NCBI RefSeq assembly: GCF_004103715.1
Contig: NZ_CP035282.1
Coordinates: forward strand, 434,001 to 498,000
Length of the DNA stretch: 64,000 nucleotides
Source: Acidilutibacter cellobiosedens
GTDB lineage: Bacteria > Bacillota > Clostridia > Tissierellales > Acidilutibacteraceae
Reading direction: 5' to 3'
In this document: positions 2,985 to 37,234 of the stretch, piece after piece
How the letters are laid out: the number at the start of each line of letters is the position of its first letter
Position numbering within the stretch: the first letter of the stretch is position 1
The notes under the pieces: generated by a model
What the model saw: only the letters and a program-made list of their open reading frames with translations
Told to the model about the DNA's origin: nothing
Databases searched by the model: none
Translations under genes and position numbers: made by a program

Positions 2985-5009
2985 ATGTATGTTTTAAATG
3001 AAAGGCAAAGTGCTATAATAATGGACTTAGTCAAATCGAGGAATCCTGTTACGGCAAAAGCTCTTTCTTTTAAATACAACGTAAGTATCAGAACTGTCCG
3101 CTATGATATTGAAATTGTCGAGAAATGGCTTTATGAAGGAAAGTTTAACTTTGTGAGAAAACATGGGACAGGTATGTGGTTAAACGTTACCGATAAGGAA
3201 AGAGAAAATATAAGAATAAAACTTCACGGCACAGACCCTTATGTTAAATTTTTTTCTAAGGATGAGAGAAAGAAGATAGTTATTAAAGAACTATTGAAAA
3301 GTTTATCTCCTGTTAATAGCGAATATCTTTGTGAGAAAACCGGAGTGAGCAAGACGACTTTACTGGAAGACATGAGGGAAGTCAGGGAGATGTTAAGCAG
3401 AAAGGGAGTTTTTGTGGAAGGGAAACCCGGTATAGGATATGTACTTGAAGGAGATGAAAAAGATATCAGAAAACTTATCAGCCAAATTTTGCTATCGGAT
3501 TTTGACAGATTTGAATTGATAGATATATTAAATGAGATAAGTTCTTCGAGGCAGATAGACCTTAATGACATTAAGAAAGATTTGAATTTGGCTCATAATA
3601 TTAATATCGAAGATATAAAAGATGCAATAAGTTCAAGCAAAAAAATTTATGATTTTTATATACCTGACAGTTCGTATATTTCCCTGATAGTTCATATTGC
3701 CATCGCGGTGGACAGACTATTAAGCAATCAGGAAATTAAATTGTCCGCCGAAAGAATAAACCTGCTTCAAAGTTACAAGGAATATAAATTGGCAAAAGAA
3801 ATATCATTAAATTTAGAGAAAACGTATAATATTTCAATTCCGGAAGCGGAAATAGCAAATATAACTTTTCACCTTATATCGGCTAACCTTAAAATGAATT
3901 ATTTTAATAATAAAAATATCTATGACTCCAATGATGATTTAATCGACGCGGTCAATAATATGATAAATTATTTAAAAAATAAATTGGTACTTCCGCAAAA
4001 GAGTTTGGAAAGTTTAAAGGTTGATTTATTGTCCCACTTAAAATTGACCCTCAAAAAAATAGAACTGAATATCCCTAACGAAAATCCTCTGCTGGAACAG
4101 ATTAAAGAAAATTACAGAAAATATTATACTTTGACTGAAGAGATTGCCCCTATATTTAAAAGAAGTACTGGTATTACTCTAACAGATGATGAAATAGGAT
4201 ATATTACTTTGCATATTGCTGCTCACGGAGAATTCAACAAAGAAAATATGACGAGAAATGTACTGCTGGTATGTACCACGGGAAAGGGAACAGCAAAAGT
4301 ATTAAAAGCTAAATTAAAAAGAGATATGCCAGAATTGGTTGTTAAAGATACGGTTTCTATTTTTGATTTGGAGGATGGTAATGTTCCTTTAGAAAACATA
4401 GATTTTATTATAAGTACTTTCCCGGCATCGGATATAAAGGTACCTGTAATAGAAGTCAATCCAATTATTACAGAGAAAGATATTTCGAGAATCAGAAGCC
4501 GTATATACGGGGAAGACTACAGAGTCATGCCTTATATGTTTACGGAAGACGATTACCTGCTGGATTCTTTAATGAGCGTAGTGAATAAATATGTTGATTG
4601 TGAAGATCAATATAAGTTAAGAGATGAATTAGGTTATGTAATGGAATTTATAATAAATCATTCCTCCGGAGATAAGGTTTTCAATAATTTCAGTTTAAAT
4701 AAATCGTCTGAAAATATAGCCTTGATTATGGCAGATATAGGAGAAATGTTGGAAGAATTAAAGGAATATTTAAAAGGTGAAGAAAGTTACTCGAAAATTT
4801 GGGGCTTGGCTATACACTTAATAATGGCTATACCTCGTTGGAACAGTAAAAAGGGGAAAAACTATGATGATTTCTCCAAAGATATCATGACAGAGAAGGA
4901 AGGAAAGATATATAAAGTTGTATCGCATTATATAAATAAAATAGCTGATAAATATAATATATTTATTCCGGAAAATGAAATTATTTCCATTGTTAAATAT
5001 TTTGAATAG
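2985..5009 (+). CDS. PRD-domain transcriptional regulator (BglG/LevR-like) with EIIB domain and C-terminal third PRD-like domain
   Basis: An upstream TTG at 2958 is in frame, but ATG 2985 has the ribosome site AAAGGGAG at the right distance, giving 674 residues. In order: an HTH_11-type winged helix (about 1-60), a second Mga-like HTH (about 85-150), PRD1 (His in LIVHIA and ITFHLI), PRD2 (His in LLSHLK and TLHIAAHG), then a GatB-like EIIB domain with Cys430 in VCTTGKGTA. Where related regulators carry an EIIA domain, this one ends with a PRD-like stretch (LAIHLIMAIPRW, then IPENEIISIVKYF). PRDs are controlled by PTS phosphorylation, so the operon is probably tied to PTS flux although it encodes no complete PTS. 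It leads the 2985-10548 operon. Confidence 0.88.
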   Translation: MYVLNERQSAIIMDLVKSRNPVTAKALSFKYNVSIRTVRYDIEIVEKWLYEGKFNFVRKHGTGMWLNVTDKERENIRIKLHGTDPYVKFFSKDERKKIVIKELLKSLSPVNSEYLCEKTGVSKTTLLEDMREVREMLSRKGVFVEGKPGIGYVLEGDEKDIRKLISQILLSDFDRFELIDILNEISSSRQIDLNDIKKDLNLAHNINIEDIKDAISSSKKIYDFYIPDSSYISLIVHIAIAVDRLLSNQEIKLSAERINLLQSYKEYKLAKEISLNLEKTYNISIPEAEIANITFHLISANLKMNYFNNKNIYDSNDDLIDAVNNMINYLKNKLVLPQKSLESLKVDLLSHLKLTLKKIELNIPNENPLLEQIKENYRKYYTLTEEIAPIFKRSTGITLTDDEIGYITLHIAAHGEFNKENMTRNVLLVCTTGKGTAKVLKAKLKRDMPELVVKDTVSIFDLEDGNVPLENIDFIISTFPASDIKVPVIEVNPIITEKDISRIRSRIYGEDYRVMPYMFTEDDYLLDSLMSVVNKYVDCEDQYKLRDELGYVMEFIINHSSGDKVFNNFSLNKSSENIALIMADIGEMLEELKEYLKGEESYSKIWGLAIHLIMAIPRWNSKKGKNYDDFSKDIMTEKEGKIYKVVSHYINKIADKYNIFIPENEIISIVKYFE

Positions 5010-5022
5010 AGGAGGTAAGAAA

Positions 5023-6156
5023 TTGGATTATAAACAGGTTTTAATAAAAGGAGCAAAGCTGTTGGATTTATCGGAGAAATACAGATACGTAAAAAAGGAT
5101 GTTCTCATAAAAAACGGTATAATTAATTCTATTGAAGATGATATACCGTATCTTTCAAATATGAAGTTAATCGATGGAAAAGGATATAATCTTTCTCCCG
5201 GGTTCATAGATATTCATACTCATGTATATCCTGAGAAGACAAGCCTTGGAATAAAAGCCGATACCGTAGGAGTATATAATGGGGTTACTTCTTTGTTCGA
5301 TGCGGGAAGTCAGGGCCCGGTCAATTTTGATGATTTTCGCCAAAACGTTATATTGAAAAATATAACGGACGTATACGCTTTCTTAAATATTGCAAAGACC
5401 GGGTTGGAAAAAGAAAGATATGAGATAGCGGATTTATCCAATATAGATTTAGATATGGTGAAAGACGTTTATTACAAAAATAAGGATTTTATAAAGGGAA
5501 TAAAGGTAAGAGCCAGTGCCAGCTGTGTAGGAGAATTGGGAATAAAGCCTGTAGAATTGGCAAAAAAGGTGTCAAAGGAGCTTGGTATTCCTCTTTTAGT
5601 CCATATAGGGAATCGTCCTCCTGATATAGATGATGTTTTAAATTTGCTGGAAAAAGGAGATATAGTTACTCATACCTTCCACGGCAAACCAAAGGGAATA
5701 TTGGAAAACGATAAGATAAGGCCATCATTTTTAAGAGCACGAGACAGAGGCGTTTTATTTGATGTAGGCCACGGCACTTCAAGTTTTAATTTCAACGTTT
5801 TCAGAAAAGCCTTTGATGAGAAATTTTATCCTGATTTAATAAGTACAGATATTTATAAAGATAACTATAATGGTCCGGTTTTTAGTTTGGAGCAGACAAT
5901 AAATAAACTTATCGGCATGGGAATGACTATAGAAGATTGTATTTATAAAGTTACTTATGTTCCTGCAAGACATTTAGGATTAGATAAGGTGGGAAGTTTA
6001 AAAGTCGGATTTAAAGCTGATTTAACCTTATTTAGGATAGAACAAAAAGAAAGGACTTATGTGGATTCGGAAAAAAATTTGTTGAAGACTTCAAAAGGTA
6101 TAGATATTGATTATGTATTAAAAAACGGAGTTTTAATTGAATCAGGGAAAAATTAG
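5023..6156 (+). CDS. amidohydrolase/deacetylase family metallohydrolase (EF_0837-type)
   Basis: The frame opens at 4975 inside the previous gene. The start with an ideal ribosome site (GGAGGT, six bases ahead) is TTG 5023, giving 377 residues. Residues 63-68 read DIHTHV, the metal-binding HxH of the amidohydrolase fold (His65, His67). Lys158 or Lys161 in FIKGIKVRA is the likely carboxylated bridging lysine. HIGNRPP and THTFHGKP supply further metal His, and STDIYKDN the catalytic Asp. Relatives include dihydroorotase-like enzymes and N-acyl amino-sugar or D-amino-acid deacetylases. Beside a DgaE-like lyase, a plausible job is removing an acyl group or opening a ring before deamination; the true substrate is unknown. 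Confidence 0.85.
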   Translation: MDYKQVLIKGAKLLDLSEKYRYVKKDVLIKNGIINSIEDDIPYLSNMKLIDGKGYNLSPGFIDIHTHVYPEKTSLGIKADTVGVYNGVTSLFDAGSQGPVNFDDFRQNVILKNITDVYAFLNIAKTGLEKERYEIADLSNIDLDMVKDVYYKNKDFIKGIKVRASASCVGELGIKPVELAKKVSKELGIPLLVHIGNRPPDIDDVLNLLEKGDIVTHTFHGKPKGILENDKIRPSFLRARDRGVLFDVGHGTSSFNFNVFRKAFDEKFYPDLISTDIYKDNYNGPVFSLEQTINKLIGMGMTIEDCIYKVTYVPARHLGLDKVGSLKVGFKADLTLFRIEQKERTYVDSEKNLLKTSKGIDIDYVLKNGVLIESGKN

Positions 6157-6168
6157 GAGGCCGCTGTT

Positions 6169-6522
6169 ATGGAAATATTAGACGAACTAAGAGAAAAGCT
6201 AAACATTAATGACGACGAATACAAAGAAATGGAAAATATAATTAAAGGTATGGAGAAAGTTCTGAATACCAAAGGTATTTACTTTAATGATCAACTGAAA
6301 ATAGGATTTTATTCTCATATGGTCAGCTTTGTAAGGCGGTTGAAAAACAAAGAATTGGTTACAGACGCAGATTCAAGTTCAGTATTATCTCAAATAAAGA
6401 AAGAAAATATGGATTTAGCGTCTGACCTTATAAAGCCTCTGTTTAAAAAATACGGCGCTGATTATAACAAAGAGGAAATAATATTGATAGCTATTTATAT
6501 ACAAACGGCAAGTAAAGATTAA
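6169..6522 (+). CDS. stand-alone PRD domain protein (EF_0829-type)
   Basis: 117 residues starting at ATG 6169, with AGGAGG ten bases upstream. The whole protein is one PRD-like domain: GFYSHMVSFVRRLKNKE matches the PRD core pattern H-x5-R, and YNKEEIILIAIYIQ the closing E-x-x-x-I-x-x-H/Y segment. Such single-PRD proteins are known members of the DUF4310-4312 gene set. It has no DNA-binding or catalytic domain. It may modulate the 674-residue regulator, for example as a phosphorylation decoy or partner; that role is inference. It lies 12 bases after the amidohydrolase gene. Confidence 0.82.
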   Translation: MEILDELREKLNINDDEYKEMENIIKGMEKVLNTKGIYFNDQLKIGFYSHMVSFVRRLKNKELVTDADSSSVLSQIKKENMDLASDLIKPLFKKYGADYNKEEIILIAIYIQTASKD

Positions 6523-6577
6523 ACTTTATTTTTACAGATAAAAATTACTAAAGATATTTATGGAGGAGGTTAAAAAT

Positions 6578-6949
6578 ATGGGGAAACAAGTAGTGGTTGT
6601 AATCGGAGATAGACTTGGAAAAGGACAAAAAGTAGCTAAAGGGGTAGAAGCTTCAGGAGGAAAGGCTATCTGTATTCCGGGAATGGGTGCTGATATGAAA
6701 GTCGGAGACGTAATGAAGGAAAATAATGCAGATTTCGGTATCAGCTTTTGCGGAAGCGGTGGAGCAGGAGCCTTGATGGCTTCAAATAAATACGGCTTTA
6801 AGGCAATTCACCATCTCAGAAGTATAGAAGCGGGAGTTACGGCTATAAAGGAAGGATATGAAGTTTTAGGTTTTGGTTTTATGGATAGGGAGGAGCTGGG
6901 ACAGAAATTAGCGGAAGAATATATCAAAATCCATAATAAAAAGGAGTAA
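6578..6949 (+). CDS. glycine-rich SFCGS family protein (EF_0830-type)
   Basis: ATG 6578 follows GGAGGAGG directly; an earlier in-frame ATG at 6560 lies upstream of that site and is not favoured. The protein has 123 residues and contains the family signature SFCGSGGAG in the middle plus an N-terminal Rossmann-like strand-loop pattern VVVIGDRLGKG. The conserved Cys in a Gly-rich loop recalls the phospho-accepting loop of PTS IIB proteins, but homology is not established. Its neighbours are always the DUF4312/4311/4310 genes in the known clusters, so it is probably a soluble part of that transporter. Confidence 0.85.
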   Translation: MGKQVVVVIGDRLGKGQKVAKGVEASGGKAICIPGMGADMKVGDVMKENNADFGISFCGSGGAGALMASNKYGFKAIHHLRSIEAGVTAIKEGYEVLGFGFMDREELGQKLAEEYIKIHNKKE

Positions 6950-6954
6950 TAAAT

Positions 6955-7242
6955 ATGGAGAAAAGACAGTGTATGAAGGAGGTTGAAAAAAATTTAACCA
7001 TAACTGCTCAGGGAAATTCCATAAAAACGGCTTACGGAAATATATTTTCTATATTGAGGAAGAAAGTTTACAGTGAAGTGGAAGGCCTTATTATTTATAT
7101 GGAACCTTTAAATGTCTATGAATTGGAAGTTAAGAAACATTCTTATACCGAGAAGTTTTTAGGACTGTTTATGCCGAGGGAAAAGAATAACTGTGAGGTT
7201 ACGGCAGAAATAGTTGTAAAAATAAAATATATTCAATGTTGA
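6955..7242 (+). CDS. DUF4312 family protein (EF_0831-type)
   Basis: 95 residues. The ribosome site AAGGAG overlaps the stop of the preceding gene, implying translational coupling. There is no signal peptide or membrane helix. The sequence is a compact alternating pattern with conserved segments ITAQGNSIKTAYGNIFSILR and EVTAEIVVKIKYI. No enzyme motif can be seen. Function is unknown; position between the SFCGS protein and two membrane proteins suggests a cytoplasmic transporter component. Confidence 0.82.
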   Translation: MEKRQCMKEVEKNLTITAQGNSIKTAYGNIFSILRKKVYSEVEGLIIYMEPLNVYELEVKKHSYTEKFLGLFMPREKNNCEVTAEIVVKIKYIQC

Positions 7243-7254
7243 GGAGGTTAAAAG

Positions 7255-7974
7255 ATGATAGGAATAATAATTAAATCCATTATTATCGGAGCAGTCGGCG
7301 GCGGAGCAATAGCTGCAGGTGCTTCAAGAATGTTCTATGCACCGGAAATTCAATCTATGGGCGCTTTCAGAACGTTGGGGGAATTAAATGCTTGTAAAGG
7401 AGATGCAGTTACCCACTTTTCCTTCGGCCTCGGCTTCTTTTTTAATGCCGCGGCCTCGGCAGTAGGTGCAGGAGCCTTGACTCAAGATGTATTTCACAGA
7501 ATAATTCCGAACTGGGCGGCAGGAGTACTTTTATTGAAAAATAAATCGGTGAAAGAAACTTTAGAAGATCCGGCTAAAATGTTTATTTCCGGTTCGGTAA
7601 TCGGAGCAGTAACGGTTTTATTCATGAATACCATAGCTTCGGTTATACCTAAAGTAGCGGCAGTAACGGCGAAAAATATTCTCGGACCAGCATCGGATCT
7701 GATGATTAATCCCATAATGCCTATAATATTTTGGTTGGCTGCATTGGATTCAGGCAAGATTACAGGAATATGGGCTACAATTCTCGGGGGATTTTCCCAT
7801 ATGATTATGGGAAATGCGGTACCGGGATTGGTCCTTGGGATATTGATAGGGCAATCAGTGGAATCAGGCGGGTATAATAAATCCGTTAAGATTATGATAG
7901 GAGTTGTTACGGTTCTTTTTGTTGTAATAGCGTATTTCAGAGGATTTTTTGATAAACTGGTAGGAATATTTTAA
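7255..7974 (+). CDS. DUF4311 family membrane protein (EF_0832-type)
   Basis: 239 residues from ATG 7255 behind GAGGAGG. About six to seven hydrophobic segments with many small residues (GGGAIAAGASRMF, FNAAASAVGAG, GGFSHMIMGNAVPGLVLG) show an integral membrane protein. The Gly-rich helices resemble the packing of small-molecule channels and of some PTS IIC proteins. Together with the DUF4310 protein it probably forms the membrane part of a transporter. No ATPase or classical PTS IIA is encoded in the operon, so the energy source is unknown. Confidence 0.85.
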   Translation: MIGIIIKSIIIGAVGGGAIAAGASRMFYAPEIQSMGAFRTLGELNACKGDAVTHFSFGLGFFFNAAASAVGAGALTQDVFHRIIPNWAAGVLLLKNKSVKETLEDPAKMFISGSVIGAVTVLFMNTIASVIPKVAAVTAKNILGPASDLMINPIMPIIFWLAALDSGKITGIWATILGGFSHMIMGNAVPGLVLGILIGQSVESGGYNKSVKIMIGVVTVLFVVIAYFRGFFDKLVGIF

Positions 7975-7989
7975 AGGAGGGGAAATGAT

Positions 7990-8652
7990 ATGGAAAAAGC
8001 TAATAATAGTTTTATGAGTAAATTCAGAAGTTTTTTGTTAAAAGATTCGACTTTTCCGTTGTTAGTGGCTTTAGCCGCCGCAGCTATTTTTGCCGGCACT
8101 CATATGTATGTTACTCATGGAGTTGGGGCCTTTAATGAAATATATATAGTCCAAATGCTTGATGAAGGCCTTCAAAAAGGTGATTATGCAGCAGCGGCGG
8201 CCTTTTCAACAGGATTTTTGATAGCAAGAATATTAGAGGGTCCGTTGGTTGGAGTATTGGATATTGGAGGTTCCTTATTAACAGGTGTTGGTATAGGAAT
8301 TCCAGCTCTAATGCTGGCTTCCGGTATAAGAGGACCTATTGACAATTTTGGACTGGCTTTGATTACCGGAGGATTGATAGGATTAGCCATAGGAATAATA
8401 GTGATTGGTATAAGAAAATTGATGCCTAAAGGAATATCCTCTTCGGGGACAGATATAATGATTGGAGCCGGAAATGCAACGGGAAGATATTTAGGCCCTC
8501 TTATTATAATATCTTCAATATCTTACAGTATTCCTGCGGGTATAGGGGCTTTTATAGGAGGGGCTATTTTTTATAAAATAGACAAGCCCATTGCCGGAGG
8601 AGCAATATTAGGGGCAATGATATTGGCAAGTTTCTTCCCGATACCTGTTTAA
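7990..8652 (+). CDS. DUF4310 family membrane protein (EF_0833-type)
   Basis: 220 residues, start ATG 7990 after AAGGAGGGG. A cytoplasmic N-terminus is followed by about six membrane segments with repeated Gly/Ala patterns (FSTGFLIARILEGPLVGVLD, IGAGNATGRYLGPLIIISS, GAFIGGAIFYKIDKPIAGG). It is paired with DUF4311 in all clusters of this kind known to me and is likely its membrane partner. Spacing is 15 bases. Substrate unknown; catabolic neighbours suggest an amino-sugar acid or related compound. Confidence 0.85.
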   Translation: MEKANNSFMSKFRSFLLKDSTFPLLVALAAAAIFAGTHMYVTHGVGAFNEIYIVQMLDEGLQKGDYAAAAAFSTGFLIARILEGPLVGVLDIGGSLLTGVGIGIPALMLASGIRGPIDNFGLALITGGLIGLAIGIIVIGIRKLMPKGISSSGTDIMIGAGNATGRYLGPLIIISSISYSIPAGIGAFIGGAIFYKIDKPIAGGAILGAMILASFFPIPV

Positions 8653-8679
8653 TAGACTAAAAAAGAGAGGAGAAATTAT

Positions 8680-9804
8680 ATGAGTATTTACAAAGATATG
8701 GGACTAAAAGATATAATAAATGCAAGCGGTAAGATGACTGTTTTGGGATGTTCTACTCTTGACAGAAGGGTATCCGATTATATGAGAGAAGCTTCCGACA
8801 ATTTTGTTGAAATGGAAGAACTGATTAATAAGGCAGGAGAAATAATTGCCCGCTATATAGGAGCGGAGGACGTATGCGTAACGGTAGGTGCAGCGGCAGG
8901 AATAGCCATATCTGTGGCAGCAATATTAACAGAAGGGGATTTGGACAGGATAGAAAAATTACCCATATTTGAAAGTGATAAAAAAAATATAATTATACAG
9001 AAAGGTCATGTTGTAAATTTTGGGGCACCTATAGTCCAAATGATAAAATTAGGGGGAGGAAATCCGATAGAAGTCGGACAAGCCAATAAAGTAGAGAAAT
9101 ACAATATAGAGAATAATATTAATGAAAATACAAAAGCCCTTTTGTATATTAAATCTCATCACTGTGTTCAAAAAGGGATGGTGTCCTTAGAAGATATGAT
9201 AAATATAGGTAAAAAACATAATATACCCGTTATAGTAGACGGAGCCGCGGAAGAAAATTTGAAAATCTATTTACAGAAGGGGGCAGATTTAGTTATCTAC
9301 AGTGGGGGAAAGGCTTTAGCCGGACCTACATCAGGGTTCATTGCAGGGAGAGAAGATTTAATTGAAAACTGCAAACTTCAATATAAAGGTATAGGCAGAG
9401 TAATGAAAGTAAGTAAAGAATGTATTGCAGGATTGATTAAGGCTGTGGAAATTTACTTCACCGACGACCATAAGGCAAAAGCTCAAAAACAAAAAGAAAA
9501 GATGGAATGGTTAATGGATGAAATAAATAAAATAGAGGGTTTTTCATCTGTTATAGAAAAAGATGAATCAGGAAGGGAAATATACAGACTTAAAATTTCC
9601 GTAATACGAGAAAAATTAAATATGAGTGCAGAAGAAGTAATCAAATATTTAAAGAACGGAGACCCTTCCATATTTACGAGAAACCATTATTCAAATATAG
9701 GAATAATTTATATAGACCCACGGCCCCTTAATGAAGGAGAGGAAAAGATAATATTAAACAGATTTATAGGAATCGGTAAAATAGGGAAAGAAGGAAAGAA
9801 ATAA
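8680..9804 (+). CDS. dgaE: DgaE-family PLP-dependent ammonia-lyase (SelA-like fold)
   Basis: 374 residues from ATG 8680. It has the fold-type I PLP pattern of the SelA/DgaE group: GAAAGIAISVAA in the cofactor phosphate loop, HCVQKG, IPVIVDGAAEE (Asp for the pyridine nitrogen), and Lys211 in YSGGKALAGPTSGF as the Schiff-base lysine. DgaE of Salmonella removes ammonia from D-glucosaminate 6-phosphate to give 2-keto-3-deoxy-6-phosphogluconate. The next gene encodes the matching aldolase, supporting the same or a closely related reaction here. The symbol is by family and context. The exact sugar stereochemistry is not shown by the sequence. Confidence 0.85.
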   Translation: MSIYKDMGLKDIINASGKMTVLGCSTLDRRVSDYMREASDNFVEMEELINKAGEIIARYIGAEDVCVTVGAAAGIAISVAAILTEGDLDRIEKLPIFESDKKNIIIQKGHVVNFGAPIVQMIKLGGGNPIEVGQANKVEKYNIENNINENTKALLYIKSHHCVQKGMVSLEDMINIGKKHNIPVIVDGAAEENLKIYLQKGADLVIYSGGKALAGPTSGFIAGREDLIENCKLQYKGIGRVMKVSKECIAGLIKAVEIYFTDDHKAKAQKQKEKMEWLMDEINKIEGFSSVIEKDESGREIYRLKISVIREKLNMSAEEVIKYLKNGDPSIFTRNHYSNIGIIYIDPRPLNEGEEKIILNRFIGIGKIGKEGKK

Positions 9805-10548
9805 ATGAAAGGTAAGATAAAATTTTATAAAGACAAGATTGCATTAAATTTATTAGCAAGAGATGTAAAAAATGCCTCCGATATCAATGATACTTTAGAA
9901 GGACATGAAATTATCGGAGTACTTTCCGATAGGTTTGATAAGGTAGAAGATGGAGTTAAATATGTAAATGAAATGCTTAAGTATGTTTCTGCTGTTTCCG
10001 TAGGATTGGGGAATGGAAACCCCAATCAATGGGAAATGGCGGCAGAAATAGCCAAAGAAACGGATTCCGGTCATGTTAATCAGGTTTTCCCCACGGCAGG
10101 GTATACTCAAGGATTGTTAGAAGGTTCCGGAGCAAATAATACTTTAGTAAATGCTCTTATCAGTCCTACAGGAACAGTTGGCAAAGTAATAATTTCAACT
10201 GGACCTTTCAGCAGTAAAAATAACATTGTTGTAGACATAGATGATGCTTTACTGATGTTGAAAGACTGCAAAATAAAATCCGTCAAATTTTATAACATTC
10301 ATGGGCTTAAACATATTAAAGAACTAAAAGAAGTGGCGAAAGCTTGCGTCAGAAATGGAATCCCTGTGATTGAACCGACAGGAGGAATAGATCTGTCAAA
10401 TATTTATGAGATAGTCAGAGTGTGTGTGGAAGCAAAGTGTGAAAAGATAATACCTCATGTCTACAGTTCTGCTGTGGATAAGAAAACTGGCCTTACGGAT
10501 TTAAATATAGTTAAAAATTTATATGATGAAATAAAGAGGGTAGTTTAA
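9805..10548 (+). CDS. dgaF: DgaF-family 2-dehydro-3-deoxy-phosphogluconate aldolase (EF_0839-type)
   Basis: 247 residues; the ATG abuts the TAA of dgaE, so the two are translationally coupled. The TIM-barrel-like segments include VSVGLGNGNPNQW, HVNQVFPTAGYTQG, IKSVKFYNIHGLKH (candidate Schiff-base Lys in KSVKFY) and PVIEPTGGIDLSN, which matches the phosphate-binding Gly-rich strand of KDPG-type aldolases. The family cleaves 2-keto-3-deoxy-6-phosphogluconate to pyruvate and glyceraldehyde 3-phosphate. It is the last gene of the operon. Confidence 0.85.
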   Translation: MKGKIKFYKDKIALNLLARDVKNASDINDTLEGHEIIGVLSDRFDKVEDGVKYVNEMLKYVSAVSVGLGNGNPNQWEMAAEIAKETDSGHVNQVFPTAGYTQGLLEGSGANNTLVNALISPTGTVGKVIISTGPFSSKNNIVVDIDDALLMLKDCKIKSVKFYNIHGLKHIKELKEVAKACVRNGIPVIEPTGGIDLSNIYEIVRVCVEAKCEKIIPHVYSSAVDKKTGLTDLNIVKNLYDEIKRVV

Positions 10549-18621: not shown

Positions 18622-18939
18622 ATGAAAAAAATAAGAGTTTTGTTGGTATGCGGTTCTGGAGCCAGTTCCGGATTTATGGCAGTAAATATCAGAAAAGCGG
18701 CAAAAGTCAGAGGAATTGATATTCAAGTTAATGCAAGAAGTGATTCCGAAATAGGAAATTATATTGACGATTGTGATTTGATCTTTGTCGGTCCTCATTT
18801 AGAGTGCATGATTGATGAAATCAAAGAATATGAAGAAGAATTCCCTGTTAAAGTTGCTTTAATGAAACCGGAGTACTATTCGACTTTAGACGGAGATAAG
18901 GCACTGGATCATATTTTATCGTTATTTAATAAAAATTAA
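18622..18939 (+). CDS. PTS cellobiose/lactose-type EIIB
   Basis: The frame opens at 18595, but ATG 18622 follows AGGAGG by six bases, giving 105 residues. Residues 3-14 read KIRVLLVCGSGA, with Cys10 as the phospho-acceptor at the end of strand one. Length and the later segments DLIFVGPHLE and VKVALMKPEYYSTLDG fit the lactose/cellobiose IIB family. It accepts phosphate from the EIIA encoded two genes downstream and passes it to the incoming sugar at the IIC. Confidence 0.92.
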   Translation: MKKIRVLLVCGSGASSGFMAVNIRKAAKVRGIDIQVNARSDSEIGNYIDDCDLIFVGPHLECMIDEIKEYEEEFPVKVALMKPEYYSTLDGDKALDHILSLFNKN

Positions 18940-18959
18940 AAAATAAAGGAGGAAAAGGG

Positions 18960-20210
18960 ATGAATAAGTTAATAAATTGGTTAGAAAATTCATTTGCACC
19001 GAAGTTGAATAAAATAAGCCATTTTAGTTGGGTTACAATATTAAAAGATTCAATTATGCAGATATTGCCTTTTATTTTGCTTGGTTCGGTATTTTGCGTA
19101 TTGGCAATCCTTAATGATTATTTTCCGAATCTTCCCAGCTTTTGGACGCCTTTCGGATGGACTATGGGAAAATTATCTTTGTTTGTAGCATTTCTTGTAC
19201 CGTTCAATTATTGCGAGAAAAAGAAATTACGTAAGCAGAGATTAATCGCTGGTTTGACCGGATTAATATTTTTCTTGATCTGTACTACGCCGGTTATTGT
19301 TAAAGAAGGGACTGTAGGTTTTGATTCATCTGCCCTTGGCGCCGGAGGCATGTTTGTCGCAATTGTTACCGGTATTATTACATCATTAATATTTGGTGCA
19401 TTTGGCAAGTTTTCGTTTTTTAAAGAAGATTCGCCAATACCAGAATTTGTAAGAGTATGGTTTGATCAAATGCTTCCGATTTTTATAGTCGTATGTTTGG
19501 GGTGGCTTGTTGTACAAGTTAAAAATATTAATTTATACAATTTGATTTCTAATCTGTTTATGCCGTTGCAAAATGTTTTGAATACTTGGTACGGTTTTAT
19601 GTTCATAAATTTCTTTGAGTGTTTTATTTATTCCATGGGAATTTCAGGCTGGACACTTACTCCTGTGACTCAACCGGTTAAAATGGCAAGTATTGCGGCA
19701 AATCTTGCAATGGTAGCTGCCGGGACAGCTACAGTAGCTAATATGAATTTGTATACGGAAGGAACTATTTATGTTACTTATATGTGGGTAGGCGGAGTTG
19801 CGTGTACCTTACCTCTTGTAATCATGTTAATGCGTTCAAAAGTAAAAAAATTAAAAGCATTAGGGAGAGTATGTATCGGATCAAGTATTTTTAATATCAA
19901 CGAACCCGTAGTATTCGGATGTATTGCATGGAATCCATTATTAATGTTACCTATGTGGTTGCAGGGAATAGTTATATCTCTTCTCACATGGTTCTTTTGT
20001 AAGGTTATTGCTTTTGCTCCAATACCAAGGATTCAATTTGAACTATGGTATATGCCGTATCCAATTGGAACCTGGATTTCGACAAGGTCAATTAAAGCAA
20101 TTTTATTTTTAATTTTGTCTGTTTTTGTGTCAGCGTTAATTTGGTATCCTTTCTTTAAAGTATATGAAAAACAAGAATATAAAAACGAACAAGCAAGTAT
20201 ACAAGAATAA
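18960..20210 (+). CDS. PTS cellobiose/lactose-type EIIC membrane transporter
   Basis: 416 residues, ATG 18960 after GGAGGAAAAG. About ten membrane helices. Family patterns include SIMQILPFILLGSVFCV, WTLTPVTQPV and the sugar-site motif SSIFNINEPVVFG, in which the Asn-Glu pair binds the sugar. It imports a beta-glucoside or related disaccharide as its 6-phosphate together with the flanking IIB and IIA. It is slightly shorter than the usual 430-450 residues. Confidence 0.92.
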   Translation: MNKLINWLENSFAPKLNKISHFSWVTILKDSIMQILPFILLGSVFCVLAILNDYFPNLPSFWTPFGWTMGKLSLFVAFLVPFNYCEKKKLRKQRLIAGLTGLIFFLICTTPVIVKEGTVGFDSSALGAGGMFVAIVTGIITSLIFGAFGKFSFFKEDSPIPEFVRVWFDQMLPIFIVVCLGWLVVQVKNINLYNLISNLFMPLQNVLNTWYGFMFINFFECFIYSMGISGWTLTPVTQPVKMASIAANLAMVAAGTATVANMNLYTEGTIYVTYMWVGGVACTLPLVIMLMRSKVKKLKALGRVCIGSSIFNINEPVVFGCIAWNPLLMLPMWLQGIVISLLTWFFCKVIAFAPIPRIQFELWYMPYPIGTWISTRSIKAILFLILSVFVSALIWYPFFKVYEKQEYKNEQASIQE

Positions 20211-20231
20211 ATCAAGATAGGAGCAGATAAA

Positions 20232-20567
20232 ATGAATGAAGAAATGGTTCAGAATGCAATGCAGATTATTCTTCATGCCGGAGATGCAAGGACAAGAGTA
20301 GAAAAAGCGCTTATTGCGGTTTCTATATTTGATTTTGAAACTGCGGAAAAAGAAATGGAACTTGCTCAAGTGAAGATTACCGAAGCGCACAAAGTTCAAA
20401 CCGATGCAATTCAAGATGAAATTCGTGGAACGGCATCTGAAAGTTCATTATTGTTCACACATGCACAGGATACCTTGATGACAATTTACAGTGAGATCAA
20501 TATTGCTAAACAACTTATTAACATTGCTAAAAGTTTAGATCAACGATTAAAAGTTTTAGAAAAATAA
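20232..20567 (+). CDS. PTS lactose/cellobiose-type EIIA
   Basis: 111 residues, start ATG 20232. A three-helix bundle of the lactose/cellobiose IIA family: AMQIILHAGDARTRVEKAL (helix one), FDFETAEKEMELA (helix two), and active His77 in LLFTHAQDTLMT (helix three). It carries phosphate from HPr to the IIB. Order IIB-IIC-IIA-glycosidase marks a single operon ended by the terminator at 22096. Confidence 0.93.
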   Translation: MNEEMVQNAMQIILHAGDARTRVEKALIAVSIFDFETAEKEMELAQVKITEAHKVQTDAIQDEIRGTASESSLLFTHAQDTLMTIYSEINIAKQLINIAKSLDQRLKVLEK

Positions 20568-20584
20568 AATATATGAATTTCTAA

Positions 20585-22054
<1,470 letters not shown>

Positions 22055-28796: not shown

Positions 28797-29078
28797 GTGA
28801 AAAAATTTATTGTTGCATGTAATAATGGAGTTGCTACATCACAGACAATTGCCAGTAAAGTCAATAGCTTGCTGGAAGAGAGAGGAGTGAAAAATGCAAG
28901 GGTTGAAGCTGTAGATATAAAATCAATTGATACCTATTTATCTACTGCAGATGCTTATATCTGTGTTATAGCTCCCGATAAGGAATATGATTTGCCTGTA
29001 ATTAACGGAGTTTCATTTTTAACTGGTGTGGGAGCTGAAGAAGAACTTCAGAAATTAATTGATATAGCAAATAGTTAA
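28797..29078 (+). CDS. PTS galactitol-type EIIB
   Basis: 93 residues. GTG 28788 lies within the ribosome site AGGAGG and is not a start; GTG 28797 is eight bases after it. The N-terminus KKFIVACNNGVATSQTIASK has the phospho-Cys8 in the GatB-type loop. Upstream is a GTACGGCCGTAC palindrome at 28720-28731. The gene is intact but its IIA and regulator are fragments, so the system is likely not functional unless served by another IIA. Confidence 0.85.
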   Translation: MKKFIVACNNGVATSQTIASKVNSLLEERGVKNARVEAVDIKSIDTYLSTADAYICVIAPDKEYDLPVINGVSFLTGVGAEEELQKLIDIANS

Positions 29079-29138
29079 ATAAAAAACCGTTTATGAGATA
29101 TGATTGATGATTATTAAATTACGAAGGGAGTGTATTTA

Positions 29139-30509
29139 ATGAGTACTATTATCAATATTTTTAATTTTATAGTAAACGATCTGGGTTCAACTTTGTTCTT
29201 ACCGGCTTTAATGATGATTTTAGGATTGTGTATGGGAATGAAGGTTAAGAAAGCCTTTTCAGCAGCTATTACCTTTGGCGTGGCTCTTGCTGCCATGTCT
29301 TTGGTTATAGGTTATATGACCGGTGCAATTTCACCTGCAGCCCAGGCTATGTCAAAGACTGTAGGTAAAACGTTTGATGTGGTAGATGGCGGCTGGGTGA
29401 CATTAGCCTCAATAACATGGTCATGGAAGTATGCATTTTTACTTTTCCCATTTCAAATTGTAATAAACCTATTGATGTTTTTCATGGGTAAAACAAAAAC
29501 TATAAATGTTGACCTGTGGAATGTCTGGGGAAAGGTATTTCAAACTATAGTTATTAAAGCTATCACAGGGAGCATATTGTTAGGTTTAGTTGTGGCTGCA
29601 TTGAGAATAGTTCTTGAATTGATACTCGGTGATGCATTACAGCCTAGGGTTCTTGAAAAGTCAGGAGTTCCCGGAGTTACTTGTCCTCATAGTTTATTTT
29701 TATTCGGCAGCGTTATATATCCTATAGATATGCTTTTAAGAAAAATTCCGGCTTTAAGCAGGAGAAAGTTTGATGCCGCATATTTAAAGGAAAAGATAGG
29801 GATATTTGCCGAAAACCATGTAATGGGATTTATTTTAGGTGTTCTTTTTGGACTAGTTGCTAAGTACAGTGTTGTTAAGTCTTTAACTTTGGGGATCACC
29901 TGTGCCGCCGCTATGACCTTATTGCCAATGGCCACAAAGTTATTTATGCAAGCCTTGGCTCCTATATCGGACGCTTGCACATCTTTTATGAAGAAGAAGG
30001 TTAAAGGCAGAGAGGTATTTATTGGTCTTGATGCACCTATAATCTTAGGTAATCCCGAAATCTGGGTCTCATGTATGATTACCATACCGTTTCTTTTAAT
30101 CTGGGCAGTAGCATTACCTCAGAACAGGATGCTTCCTTTTGCAGGGATAGTTAACTTAGCATTGGCATTATGTGCTTTCTATGTTTGTGACGGGAATCTT
30201 GTCAGAATGTTGATAATAATGTGCGGTGTCGGCGCTCCGATATTCCTTCTTTGCGGTACTGCTATGGCTCCTATGATTTCCGAACTTGCTGTGCAAAATG
30301 GGTTCATTGCTGCCGGGACACTTGTTTCTAACTCTGCTTTAGATGCACCGGTCTTTTGCTATGCGTTCTCGTTTATATGGAAGATTACGAAAGGTAATTT
30401 ATTACCGTTAATCTGTGTAATATACTATATTTTCGGATATATATTGATGATCCGTGATTTAAGAAAAACTTATGCTAAACAAGATTCAACCAATGTAGTA
30501 AGTGATTAA
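29139..30509 (+). CDS. PTS galactitol-type EIIC
   Basis: 456 residues from ATG 29139 (GGGAG eight bases ahead; an upstream start at 29130 is less good). About ten membrane helices. LFLPALMMILGLCMG, VNVDLW-like region, CPHSLFLFG, IGLDAPIILGNPEIW and NSALDAPVF are family patterns. It is complete at both ends. The IS at 30534 follows 24 bases after the stop. Its former substrate may have been a deoxysugar, given the rhaA and rhaB fragments around it. Confidence 0.88.
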   Translation: MSTIINIFNFIVNDLGSTLFLPALMMILGLCMGMKVKKAFSAAITFGVALAAMSLVIGYMTGAISPAAQAMSKTVGKTFDVVDGGWVTLASITWSWKYAFLLFPFQIVINLLMFFMGKTKTINVDLWNVWGKVFQTIVIKAITGSILLGLVVAALRIVLELILGDALQPRVLEKSGVPGVTCPHSLFLFGSVIYPIDMLLRKIPALSRRKFDAAYLKEKIGIFAENHVMGFILGVLFGLVAKYSVVKSLTLGITCAAAMTLLPMATKLFMQALAPISDACTSFMKKKVKGREVFIGLDAPIILGNPEIWVSCMITIPFLLIWAVALPQNRMLPFAGIVNLALALCAFYVCDGNLVRMLIIMCGVGAPIFLLCGTAMAPMISELAVQNGFIAAGTLVSNSALDAPVFCYAFSFIWKITKGNLLPLICVIYYIFGYILMIRDLRKTYAKQDSTNVVSD

Positions 30510-34698: not shown

Positions 34699-36810
34699 AT
34701 GAAAACACTTACTGAAAGGCAATTTGAAATTTTATCGTTTCTTATTAATAAAGAAAAACCTGTCTCAGCAAAAAATTTAGCAAAAAAATTTGGGGTTAGC
34801 ACAAGAACTGTTAGATATGATCTTGATGACATAGAGTACTTCTTAAAGGGAAGTACAGTTAAATTGCAAAAAAGAAACAAGGTAGGTATTTGGATTGATA
34901 GCCCAAAAGAAGCAAAGAAAATGTTTTTATTGGAGGCACCTCGGGAAGAAAAAACCTTATGGAAAGTGGTATCTAAAGAGGACAGAAAAAAAGGTATCAT
35001 TGAAACATTGTTAAAGTGCGAAGGTTATACTACAATAAGTGAGCTGTCGAATATTCTTGAAGTAAGCTATTCAACAGTTAGAAAGGATTTAAATGAAGCT
35101 GATAAGTGGTTTGAGCAAAGAGAAATAAAGATAATCAGAAAGAAAAAACATGGTATTTGCATTTCAGGAAATGAATCAAATGTAAGAAAAGCAATATCCG
35201 AAGTTCTGGAATATAGAAATTTGGAAGATGCGGAATTCAAGATTTTTGACGAATGGTTATTTTCTGATGTTTCCATAAACGTATTATACAATTATATAAA
35301 TAAAGTGAGCAAAGAACTTAAAGTAATTTATTCCGACGAATTTTCAACAAAGTTATTAATTCATATAGGTATATGTATAAAGAGATTGAGACAGGGAAAG
35401 AAAATAAATGTGAAAAAAGAGGATATAGATGTATTAAAAGACACTAAGGAATTTATTGCAGTAAAGAAATATATTCCTGATATTGAAATGTATCTCGGAT
35501 TCAGAGTACCCATCGGAGAAATATGGTATATAACAACTCACGTAATTTGCACTAAGATTATTGAAACCTACAGGGATAAAAACAATGCTTCTTTATATAC
35601 AAAAGAAGAATTGGAAATTACTCAGAGATATATTTCAAAGATTAGTGATGCTTTATCACTAAACTTAAGAAAAGACAATATCCTTATAAAAAATCTTTTA
35701 ATGCATATCAAACCTACTTTAAATAGGTTAAAATACAAAATGCCTATAGAAAATCCGATTTTAGAGGAAATTAAGAGATGCTATCCTAAAATTTTTGGAC
35801 TAGTAAAAAAAATATCAAATGAAATATCTGAAGAGAAAGGGATAATAATAAATGATGATGAAATAGGTTTCATAGTAATGCACATATGTGCATCTGTAGA
35901 AAGAGTACAAAAAAATATGAATAAAAAGAAGTTTCGAATTTTGGTTGTCTGCGGCGGGAGTATTGGTACCTCTAAACTATTATCTTCCAGACTGAATAGT
36001 GAGTTTGAAGAATTAGAAATATCTTATGAGATCCCGGTTAGTCAAATTAGCAGTTATATAAATGGCAGCATTGATTTTTTAATATCAACTGTTCCGATAG
36101 ATGAGGTCCTTATAAAACCTGTTATAACAGTTAGCCCCCTTTTACCGGAAGAGGATATTGCTAGAATAAAAAGCCTAATGAAAGTTTTGAGAGGAGAAAA
36201 AATAAAAACAGAAAACCAAACAGTAGATGAAATCATGTTTATTATTAATCAATTTTGTAATGTTGAAAACACACATGAGCTGAAAAATGCATTAGAAAAA
36301 TCCTTTGATGAAAAATCAAATTATTATAAAAATATCGAGGAACAAAAATTGTTAACAGAAATGATTGACTTAAAGAGAATCGAAGTAAAAGTAAAATGCA
36401 GCGATAAATATGAAGCAATAAGAAAAGTAGGTAGTATGCTCCTGAAAGAAGGATATATAGAGGAACCTTATATTGATGCCATGATAAAGTTATGCGAAGA
36501 GTTAAATTCATATATAGTTATAGCACCAAAGGTGGCGATGCCTCATGCAAAACCGGAATCCGGAGCAAAAAAAACAGGGTTTTCGATAATTACATTAAAA
36601 GAACCGATAGTTTTTGGCCATAAGAAAAATGATCCTGTTAGCTTGGTGATAGGGTTTTCGGCAATAAACAATACGGGGCATATTAAAGCCATGCGAGAGT
36701 TATTATCTATGCTCTGTGAGAAAGAAACGATTGAAAAAGTTATAAATAGTACTTCGAAAGAAGAACTTTATAAGAATATTCAGCAATTTGAAAAGGTTTA
36801 TCTACAGTAA
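34699..36810 (+). CDS. PRD-type PTS regulator (BglG/MtlR-like) with EIIB and EIIA domains
   Basis: 703 residues from ATG 34699. Domain order: HTH_11 (FGVSTRTVRYDLDDIE), second HTH (LEVSYSTVRKDLNEADKW), PRD1 (about 190-290; LLIHIGICIKRLRQG), PRD2 (about 300-405; LLMHIKPTLNRLKYK and IVMHICASVERV), EIIB (Cys418 in VVCGGSIGTS) and EIIA (about 545-700; His616 in VAMPHAKPESG). It is the full MtlR-like layout and should be an activator controlled by phosphorylation. It precedes the IIB and IIC genes. Its EIIA is very like the free EIIA at 38846. Confidence 0.92.
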   Translation: MKTLTERQFEILSFLINKEKPVSAKNLAKKFGVSTRTVRYDLDDIEYFLKGSTVKLQKRNKVGIWIDSPKEAKKMFLLEAPREEKTLWKVVSKEDRKKGIIETLLKCEGYTTISELSNILEVSYSTVRKDLNEADKWFEQREIKIIRKKKHGICISGNESNVRKAISEVLEYRNLEDAEFKIFDEWLFSDVSINVLYNYINKVSKELKVIYSDEFSTKLLIHIGICIKRLRQGKKINVKKEDIDVLKDTKEFIAVKKYIPDIEMYLGFRVPIGEIWYITTHVICTKIIETYRDKNNASLYTKEELEITQRYISKISDALSLNLRKDNILIKNLLMHIKPTLNRLKYKMPIENPILEEIKRCYPKIFGLVKKISNEISEEKGIIINDDEIGFIVMHICASVERVQKNMNKKKFRILVVCGGSIGTSKLLSSRLNSEFEELEISYEIPVSQISSYINGSIDFLISTVPIDEVLIKPVITVSPLLPEEDIARIKSLMKVLRGEKIKTENQTVDEIMFIINQFCNVENTHELKNALEKSFDEKSNYYKNIEEQKLLTEMIDLKRIEVKVKCSDKYEAIRKVGSMLLKEGYIEEPYIDAMIKLCEELNSYIVIAPKVAMPHAKPESGAKKTGFSIITLKEPIVFGHKKNDPVSLVIGFSAINNTGHIKAMRELLSMLCEKETIEKVINSTSKEELYKNIQQFEKVYLQ

Positions 36811-36846
36811 GTGAATTTATAATTATTAAAGAAAGAAGGTGAAAAT

Positions 36847-37152
36847 ATGGCTAACAAAAGACTTACGGTTCTTACGGTTTGTGGTGCAGGAATAGGTTCA
36901 TCATTAATGGTTAAGATGAATGCGGAGGATGTGTTAAACAAGCATGGTATAAAAGCTAAAATAATTAATTCCGATGTTACAAGTGCAAAGGGGAATAAAG
37001 TTGATGTAGTAATAGCAACATCAATGGATATTTGTAAGCTTATTAAGGGAATAGATGCAAAGCAAATAGTTGTACTTGATAATCCGGTTAGTATGAAAGA
37101 ATTAGAAGAAAAACTTATTCCCGCTTGCAAAGAAATAATATCCCAGGAATAA
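36847..37152 (+). CDS. PTS ascorbate-type EIIB (UlaB/SgaB-like)
   Basis: 101 residues, ATG 36847 after AGAAGGTG. The N-terminal strand and loop LTVLTVCGAGIGSSLMVKM carry phospho-Cys12. Length and the later pattern VIATSMDICK fit the SgaB/UlaB branch. It forms a PTS with the UlaA-like IIC at 37235 and the free IIA at 38846. Confidence 0.9.
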   Translation: MANKRLTVLTVCGAGIGSSLMVKMNAEDVLNKHGIKAKIINSDVTSAKGNKVDVVIATSMDICKLIKGIDAKQIVVLDNPVSMKELEEKLIPACKEIISQE

Positions 37153-37234
37153 AGAGTATTTCTAATTAAGGGTGTGATTTAGAAGATTAGAAATAAATAA
37201 ATGATATTTAAAAAATATTTAAGGAGGAATGAGA

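Follow-up and report, generated by a model that had tools for sequence, protein, structure and literature searches.

What does a gene set do that is already recorded in databases as conserved, but unexplained? The window (the whole stretch of DNA that was analysed, 64,000 nucleotides) carries such a set at 2985-10548 on the + strand, where its list of open reading frames (ORFs) gives nine ORFs, all in one direction. The spacing of neighbours ranges from a 35-nt overlap (genes 1 and 2, if gene 2 starts with the ATG at 4975) to a gap of 37 nt, or of 55 nt if the SFCGS gene starts at 6578; a first-pass annotation, which had described nine tightly spaced genes on one strand with several of them coupled, was correct. 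Between 2000 and 11400 there are 41 promoter-like sites (40.7 in shuffled background) and 7 terminator-like sites (4.6); as these counts are near background, transcript ends are not claimed.

The gene set and its recurrence

The match to EF_0829-EF_0839 of Enterococcus, also made by that annotation, holds: DUF4310, DUF4311, DUF4312, SFCGS, DgaE and DgaF are all present by NCBIfam and Pfam, and all nine gene families are common to the window and to EF_0829-EF_0839/AHA_3910-3917 (NCBIfam TIGR03577-03583). Four of the seven TIGR models were passed (TIGR03577, TIGR03579, TIGR03580 and TIGR03581), and three gave scores below cut-off (TIGR03578, TIGR03582 and TIGR03583). The gene set also occurs in Listeria, Helcococcus, Enterococcus, Klebsiella, Salmonella (STM4440-4447, per the notes of the record), Aeromonas, Bartonella and other genomes of the window's phylum; given this recurrence across genera, the co-occurrence of the nine genes is not due to chance. 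The window differs from the EF_0829-EF_0839 set in that its amidohydrolase gene lies between the genes for the regulator and the lone PRD protein, and its operon is without the EIIC, MupG and sugar kinase that are features of Enterococcus, and without the lactonase that is a feature of Klebsiella. A 3312-base Salmonella query had a match in 722 of 5426 E. coli genomes, none at 80% coverage, the best among the matches listed being 46 bases; the viral collection searched contained no relative.

Judged by titles, no literature on the transport part of the set (DUF4310, DUF4311, DUF4312 and SFCGS) was found. Passages of several papers mention its genes: STM4441-2 (marked crp) and STM4446 are listed as up when Salmonella is accompanied by a permissive community (PMC11000858); EF0838 is potentially critical and EF0839 may have a connection with amino sugars (PMC7701990); dgaE and dgaF are duplicated in E. 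faecalis (PMC7396535); the passages from PMC7432712, PMC9120511 and PMC11135667 name genes of the set and nothing more.

The operon begins with a PRD regulator (2985..5009, + strand, as for all features below) that comprises HTH_11, a Mga-like HTH, three PRD stretches and a weak IIB-like domain below cut-off; its Klebsiella and Bartonella counterparts have an EIIA_2 domain at the C-terminus. It is followed by an EF_0837-like amidohydrolase/deacetylase (4975..6156, start codon uncertain), which scores 399.8 bits with NF006689 (cut-off 371) and 346.8 bits with TIGR03583, below the required 432.15, and has the PDB relatives 8wzy, 2ics, 2ogj and 8je0. At the other end lie a DgaE-family PLP ammonia lyase (8680..9804) and a DgaF-like KDGP aldolase (9805..10548), which supports the tie to DgaE/DgaF that was likewise proposed at first pass. 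DgaF is past both of its cut-offs (NF047796, 343.3 bits against 300; TIGR03581, 271.9 against 222.4). DgaE is past that of TIGR01437 (457.1 bits against 385.3), whereas with the equivalog NF047797 it scores 432.3 bits, under the glucosaminate cut-off of 600, which suggests that its substrate may be other than D-glucosaminate. The DgaE- and DgaF-type enzymes are common to the window and to Salmonella DgaABCDEF, whereas SFCGS and DUF4310-4312 stand in the window instead of the DgaABCD PTS, and the amidohydrolase and lone PRD protein are extra. PMC9529869 describes DgaABCD as the PTS through which Salmonella takes up D-glucosaminate, and the 6-phosphate as the substrate of DgaE; a paper that it cites places DgaABCD, by its title, in the mannose family.

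The middle of the operon is a fixed block, in the order lone PRD-SFCGS-DUF4312-DUF4311-DUF4310, which is kept in 25 of 27 loci. The exceptions are L021, without DUF4310, and L053, which has DUF4311 split over two ORFs and a PRD-SFCGS fusion of 249 amino acids, found in this one genome. The block can be separated from the enzymes: in two genomes (G403 and G244) it is accompanied by its own regulator only, and DgaE is encoded elsewhere, in a cluster of the order EIIC-MupG-amidohydrolase-DgaE-DgaF-PfkB.

The lone PRD protein and the SFCGS protein

All five block proteins are past their Pfam cut-offs. The lone PRD protein (6169..6522; EF_0829/YhfY-like) scores 40.6 bits with Pfam PRD (cut-off 23) and 29.6 bits with TIGR03582, below the required 69.35. 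PRD domains are regulators that are phosphorylated by the PTS. His50 is invariant (27/27); the second PRD His, kept in 24 of 27, is Tyr in the window protein. Genes for HPr and EI are linked to the operon in L019 and L054, and also in L044, where they are probably housekeeping genes: on a Bartonella plasmid an HPr-EI fusion gene lies 64 nt downstream of the regulator gene, and in L054, whose genome has three EI genes, a HAD gene, HPr and EI lie downstream of DgaF. The HPr/EI genes at the end of two operons look dedicated, and could serve the PRD regulators only. EI is present in 19 of 19 operon genomes, a count that has no background rate beside it and in which 14 genomes are from a single order. 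The lone PRD protein, which the first-pass annotation did no more than list, is the better phosphocarrier candidate.

There is no kinase gene within the window operon (by the ORF list), nor within those of Listeria, Salmonella, Klebsiella and Bartonella when the operon is delimited by regulator, block and enzymes (the Listeria flanks being outside the annotation). Genes for sugar kinases of the PfkB type occur close to the block, or to the separate enzyme cluster, at six loci (L020, L038, L043, L055, L066 and L067), and the enterococcal clusters carry an additional EIIC; at those loci, the cargo might be phosphorylated or taken up in another way.

The SFCGS protein (6560..6949, likely start 6578) scores 185.6 bits with TIGR03577 (cut-off 141.1), and its Cys58 (numbered from 6578) is invariant (24/24). 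The suggestion that this loop Cys is like that of a PTS IIB is not borne out as written. The profile score of SFCGS is 34.7 against DUF2620 (100 column shuffles: 12.2 +/- 2.0), 29.5 against RpiB (hhalign P 2.4e-4; 0/100 shuffles as high; Cys aligned), and 18.6, over 31 columns, against IIB, and a plain IIB was rejected; a faint IIB signal persists, as 18.6 is above all 100 shuffles (maximum 18.2). DUF2620 and IIB score 20.3 (1/100 shuffles as high). RpiB itself scores 25.5 with IIB, so a distant Cys-loop may be shared. By profile, SFCGS is remotely related to DUF2620 (YhfU) and RpiB/LacAB, more than to PTS IIB. It is below the cut-offs of PF02502 (18.4 against 24.7 bits) and DUF2620 (14.7 against 25 bits). 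In the PDB, the single sequence matched six RpiB-type isomerases (E 0.036-0.67) and a seventh chain, not RpiB-type (E 1.3); the SFCGS profile matched seven isomerases (E 0.27-0.83) and one unrelated chain; and the DUF2620 profile matched RpiB at E 0.44-0.52, ranked under unrelated chance matches (best 0.022).

What SFCGS has in common with RpiB/LacAB is the Cys-Gly-Ser/Thr-Gly loop and local profile similarity. The RpiB His-Asn motif and C-terminal Arg/His, which have catalytic and phosphate-binding roles and are invariant among 20 aligned RpiB, are absent: His96, Asn97 and Asn100 face Ser, Ile and Gly, and in that alignment SFCGS stops short of the Arg/His.

The membrane proteins and the YhfT system

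DUF4312 (6955..7242) is a small soluble protein that scores 82 bits with Pfam (cut-off 27) and 52.5 with TIGR03578, below the required 89.65; by sequence it matched only RecA chains in the PDB, at E of at least 0.12. Its alignment has no conserved His or Cys, making it an unlikely phosphocarrier. DUF4311 (7255..7974; TIGR03580 335.6 bits, cut-off 301.1) and DUF4310 (7990..8652; TIGR03579 262.1 bits, cut-off 215.45) have five and six hydrophobic segments, respectively, in a crude hydropathy scan; Arg25, Glu43, Asp50, His54 and His81 of DUF4311 are invariant. Neither matched a PDB sequence at E<=10. The comparison of predicted structures with known folds that had been proposed for the membrane proteins gave little: the weak DUF4311 model (pLDDT 68.8), which shows more than five helices, matched nothing at E<=0.001 (lowest E 1.2; the highest Z, 5.4 over 105 residues, belonged to a bestrophin homologue), and the DUF4310 model (mean pLDDT 40) was too weak for a fold search.

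SFCGS, DUF4312, DUF4311 and DUF4310 had no PTS family match at E<=1 and no recognisable IIA, IIB or IIC. In profile comparisons with small sets (2-7 sequences, low power) of Man IIC/IID, Gat/Ula IIC or PF02378 IIC, neither DUF4310 nor DUF4311 gave a convincing relation. A 14-column match of DUF4311 to Gat/Ula IIC (two sequences, 0/30 shuffles as high) was gone with seven sequences (6/60); YhfT matched Man IIC over 29 columns (P 0.047, 0/30); and the ten remaining comparisons of that round were equalled by 2 to 27 of 30 shuffles. DUF4310 against DUF4311 was equalled by 12 of 100.

The YhfY-YhfU-YhfT system (yhf cluster of E. coli K-12) has the same layout as the SFCGS block: a lone PRD protein of the same family, a remotely related small Cys protein and a multi-span membrane protein. 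The order lone PRD-DUF2620-YhfT was found in 10 of 11 loci, with other enzymes alongside. With the model built from SFCGS-operon lone PRDs, those of the 11 YhfT loci reach 14.1-33.9 bits and the regulators at most 11.3 bits (25 ORFs tested, 22 with any match). The YhfT system differs in having one membrane protein of 420-450 amino acids, without detectable DUF4310/4311 similarity, and in lacking DUF4312; YhfT has no match in the window's own genome. Gene position, length and hydrophobic segments (5+6 against 12) prompted the idea of YhfT as a DUF4311+DUF4310 fusion, which was rejected without profile support: 69 and 79 of 100 shuffles were as high with 3 YhfT sequences, and 59 of 60 in each full-length comparison with 11. 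The DUF4311 model has a match below cut-off in E. coli, and none to YhfT at E<=1. Two papers, PMC4448311 and PMC10652928, name yhf genes.

A possible uptake system and its alternatives

The best explanation, held tentatively and at close to even confidence, is that the operon would encode a PTS-linked multi-component uptake system for an acylated relative of D-glucosaminate, an amino-sugar acid, together with the enzymes for its catabolism. The paired permease would consist of DUF4311 and DUF4310, DUF4312 would be an accessory subunit, and SFCGS would be an RpiB-like subunit in the cytosol, with a Cys58 loop that handles the substrate or phosphosubstrate. A phosphoryl group would pass from HPr to His50 of the lone PRD protein, which would dock on SFCGS, either as a phosphoryl relay or to gate transport. 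The product would go to DgaE, either as it is or once the amidohydrolase has removed the acyl group; DgaE would eliminate ammonia, and aldol cleavage by DgaF would then give pyruvate and glyceraldehyde-3-phosphate. The state of the PTS would be sensed by the PRD regulator, which would control the operon. In favour of this PTS-linked reading we counted the kept order of the block and its occurrence apart from the enzymes, the PRD-SFCGS fusion, the linked HPr and EI genes, the SFCGS-DUF2620 profile score, the scores of the YhfT-locus lone PRDs, the invariant His50 and Cys58, the PTS route of D-glucosaminate in Salmonella, and that the window operon has no kinase, although the substrate of Salmonella DgaE is a 6-phosphate; against it we counted the lack of PTS family matches, of a profile link of DUF4310/4311 to YhfT and of a convincing one to EIIC, the weak structure models, the lost second His of the window PRD, the chance that HPr/EI serve the regulators only, the EI count with its single-order bias, the nearby PfkB kinases and the enterococcal EIIC, DgaE under its equivalog cut-off, and the rank of RpiB below chance matches for the DUF2620 profile. 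The earlier proposal that the four proteins form a PTS-like or new transporter is partly supported: the conserved block with its lone PRD, its link to DgaE/DgaF and, in two operons, to HPr/EI genes, and the lack of a kinase in the window operon speak for it; the PTS likeness of the four proteins themselves, on the family, residue and EIIC comparisons above, is not supported.

The family and EIIC comparisons would suit a non-PTS secondary carrier, a possible though rather doubtful alternative, in which DUF4311/4310 take up the acid together with ions, the PRDs just report the state of the PTS, and the kinase is encoded elsewhere or is a later PfkB-type (KDG) kinase acting on the product, as the PfkB genes at six loci would allow. 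It fits less well with the kinase-free operons of the window, Listeria, Salmonella, Klebsiella and Bartonella, with the two operons that bring their own HPr-EI genes, and with the PRD fusion, in which the partner is SFCGS and not a DNA-binding part. Quite improbable is that there is no transporter, and that SFCGS/DUF4312 is a sugar-phosphate isomerase of the RpiB/LacAB kind, or a similar enzyme, held at the membrane by DUF4311/4310: the profile relation with its aligned Cys and the mostly RpiB-type PDB matches point that way, whereas the replaced and missing RpiB residues do not, an isomerase would not need two multi-span proteins, and the related DUF2620 protein adjoins a membrane gene in 10 of 11 YhfT loci despite the other enzymes there.

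An unlikely extension of the PTS-linked reading is a new class of group-translocating permease, in which the phosphoryl group would pass from HPr to a free-standing PRD (standing in for IIA), then to the Cys of RpiB-fold SFCGS or YhfU (standing in for IIB) and to the cargo, with a membrane part (DUF4311+DUF4310, or YhfT) unrelated to any EIIC, and YhfY-YhfU-YhfT as a second branch. 

More generally, a role in a permease, whether serving or gating it, would be new for a PRD domain. A single testable hypothesis would then cover two orphan gene sets, that of Salmonella and Klebsiella and that of E. coli K-12, with PRD His50, SFCGS Cys58 and the YhfU Cys as its named residues and safe laboratory organisms at its disposal; and a function would be suggested for families that Pfam lists as unknown.

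The operon and the PTS of its genome

The + strand between 2985 and 10548 is occupied by nine genes, all of which match the families named in the first-pass annotation. The undescribed transporter that this annotation saw in the four proteins of unknown function is upheld as a candidate, and a better anatomy for it is a lone PRD protein, an RpiB-like Cys protein (SFCGS) and a membrane pair, an arrangement that has a parallel in YhfY-YhfU-YhfT. Databases already list the gene set; as far as our searches of the literature went, the putative mechanism is new.

The genome is a single 3.74-Mb contig with one SFCGS gene. It holds three HPr, one EI and 30 PTS IIB matches, and is therefore rich in ordinary PTS. 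Further PTS clusters lie in the window at 18634-22051 (IIB match 18634-18909; EIIC 18960-20207, beside a GH1 glycosidase, 20615-22051), 28809-30506 (IIB match 28809-29051; Gat-type EIIC 29130-30506) and 34699-38506 (PRD/EIIA_2 regulator 34699-36807 with a IIB match, 36868-37116, and a Gat-type EIIC, 37229-38506). The PRD regulator of the operon has a C-terminal EIIA_2 domain in Klebsiella (L018; L numbers denote loci of other genomes) and Bartonella (L019); EIIA_2 was seen in none of the 11 Bacillota-side operon regulators scanned (the window's and ten others), four of which have three PRD stretches (window, L052, L053, L054).

Kinship of SFCGS and the YhfT parallel

Against Pfam, SFCGS matched LacAB_rpiB (E 0.0021) and DUF2620, the YhfU family (E 0.036), each under the cut-off; conversely, two DUF2620 proteins matched SFCGS (E 0.0042 and E 0.12) and another matched RpiB (E 0.065). 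Profile-profile scores were judged against 100 column-shuffled nulls (mean, sd, maximum in brackets), which keep no control over shared secondary-structure patterns, and the DUF2620 set comprised three rows: SFCGS-DUF2620, 34.7 (12.2, 2.0, 18.1); SFCGS-RpiB, 29.5 (13.4, 3.2, 25.3); DUF2620-RpiB, 27.5 (13.1, 2.6, 21.4); SFCGS-IIB, 18.6 (11.1, 2.5, 18.2); DUF2620-IIB, 20.3 (10.8, 2.4, 21.2); and RpiB-IIB, 25.5 over 48 columns (10.8, 2.2, 19.5). Judging by sequence profiles, the RpiB and PTS IIB Cys-loop families may be distantly linked. The hhalign probabilities were modest (SFCGS-DUF2620 77%, SFCGS-RpiB 44%), and the DUF2620 profile met RpiB in the PDB at E 0.44-0.52, ranked below unrelated matches. 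Aligned with RpiB, SFCGS has neither the His-Asn motif nor the C-terminal Arg, and isomerase activity is therefore unlikely.

Cys58 (numbered from the likely start at 6578), Arg12, Lys15, Lys71 and Arg81 are invariant in the 24 SFCGS sequences aligned, out of 27 non-identical ones. In the lone PRD, His50, Arg57 and Glu103 are invariant in 27/27 rows (24 from SFCGS operons, three from DUF2620/YhfT loci), and a second His is present in 24, being missing in the window, Helcococcus and YhfY. DUF4311 has invariant Arg25, Glu43, Asp50, His54 and His81 (24/24), and DUF4310 has invariant Glu75, Asp83 and Asn154 (25/25). No alignment column of 24 DUF4312 sequences holds more than five His or one Cys.

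In E. coli K-12, yhfY (PRD), yhfU (DUF2620) and yhfT lie in one gene run, although other genes separate yhfY from yhfU. Of 398 phylum genomes, 11 have YhfT above the cut-off. All 11 YhfT loci (L056, L057, L140-L148) contain a lone PRD, DUF2620 and YhfT, in that order in all except the rearranged L141, and the DUF2620 Cys is conserved throughout. A model of 24 SFCGS-operon lone PRDs gave 20.5 bits to YhfY and 14.1-33.9 bits to the 11 YhfT-locus lone PRDs, which were chosen with a model containing two of them and YhfY, whereas 25 regulator ORFs (including one duplicate) reached at most 11.3 bits. The SFCGS and YhfT sets thus have in common a lone PRD of one family and a Cys-loop protein, with a multi-span protein close by. 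Profile comparison of DUF4310 and DUF4311 with the YhfT membrane proteins gave no detectable kinship. The AlphaFold2 model of DUF4311 (five sequences) is all helical but weak (pLDDT 68.8, pTM 0.57), and had no significant match in the PDB; that of DUF4310 has a pLDDT of 40.4.

The block as a unit

We annotated 28 block-holding loci, or 27 once L039 was dropped as a repeat of L011, and 25 of the 27 keep the order lone PRD, SFCGS, DUF4312, DUF4311, DUF4310. Between DUF4311 and a short DgaF, no DUF4310, amidohydrolase or DgaE was found in the Aeromonas locus (L021). L053 encodes a PRD-SFCGS fusion of 249 aa (PRD 28-114, SFCGS 132-244) and spreads DUF4311 over two ORFs, so that sequencing error or decay is possible in this record. 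Like this DUF4311, the regulator (L012, L048) and DgaF (L020) appear as split ORFs, through decay or sequence errors.

The enzyme genes vary in place, being 5′ of, within or 3′ of the block. The regulator is the block's sole companion in L046 and L049; DgaE lies elsewhere in both genomes, in a cluster of EIIC (PF02378), an 87-90 aa protein without a Pfam match, MupG, amidohydrolase, DgaE, DgaF and a PfkB kinase, headed by a regulator read as GntR-like. Since the enzymes are movable and the block stands apart from DgaE in these genomes, the block is its own unit, co-travelling with the DgaE/DgaF pathway. In E. faecalis, the block and the EIIC-MupG-DgaE/DgaF cluster are joined; its EIIC is 70% identical to that of L067. 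Enterococcal-type DgaE/DgaF clusters occur in L020 (8941-19243), L066 (4467-12109) and L067 (4944-12381), each with a PF02378 EIIC, no IIA/IIB seen adjoining it, a MupG hydrolase and an 87-99 aa protein without a Pfam match; this content hints that the source could be a cell-wall-type disaccharide.

Of the 299 genomes sampled from the phylum, 6 (own genome counted) have SFCGS above the cut-off; for DUF4310, the figure is 14 of 148 genomes of one order. Named carriers are Helcococcus, Listeria, Klebsiella, Bartonella, Enterococcus, Aeromonas and Salmonella (a serovar Infantis record, annotated with the LT2 counterparts STM4440-4447). A search of 5426 complete E. coli genomes turned up no site covering 80% of the Salmonella SFCGS-amidohydrolase stretch. 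Pieces of the operon also turn up in six phage records that carry no annotation (Listeria, Salmonella, Escherichia, Enterococcus); they are probably host DNA in the deposits.

Possible phosphotransfer partners and substrate

On the Bartonella plasmid, an HPr-EI fusion of 671 aa (HPr 9-86 and three EI domains) starts 64 nt after the operon; its sequence shows the motifs of the active His loops. In L054, DgaF is followed on the same strand by a HAD gene, HPr and EI, in a genome with three EI genes. HPr and EI directly upstream of the operon in L044 are probably housekeeping, this EI being the sole one over the cut-off in its genome, and the HPr-like protein of L021 is taken for NPr of the rpoN region. 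The loci scanned held no HPr or EI beyond those in L019, L021, L044 and L054; an 880-aa match in L050 looks like PPDK, judged by its start. EI is present in 19/19 genomes with the operon, a count made over operon genomes only. This evidence fits a PTS-dependent permease and, equally, PTS-dependent PRD regulation.

PfkB-family sugar kinases lie near the block in L020 (assigned from its sugar kinase annotation alone), L038, L043 and L055; the split clusters of L066 and L067 also contain them. The Pfam kinase survey covered part of the loci. In Salmonella the 6-phosphate is delivered by DgaABCD, ammonia is removed by the lyase and the product is cleaved by DgaF (PMC9529869). The amidohydrolase in the operon suggests an acylated substrate; the Klebsiella operon differs in having an extra lactonase, and that of Enterococcus an extra MupG hydrolase.
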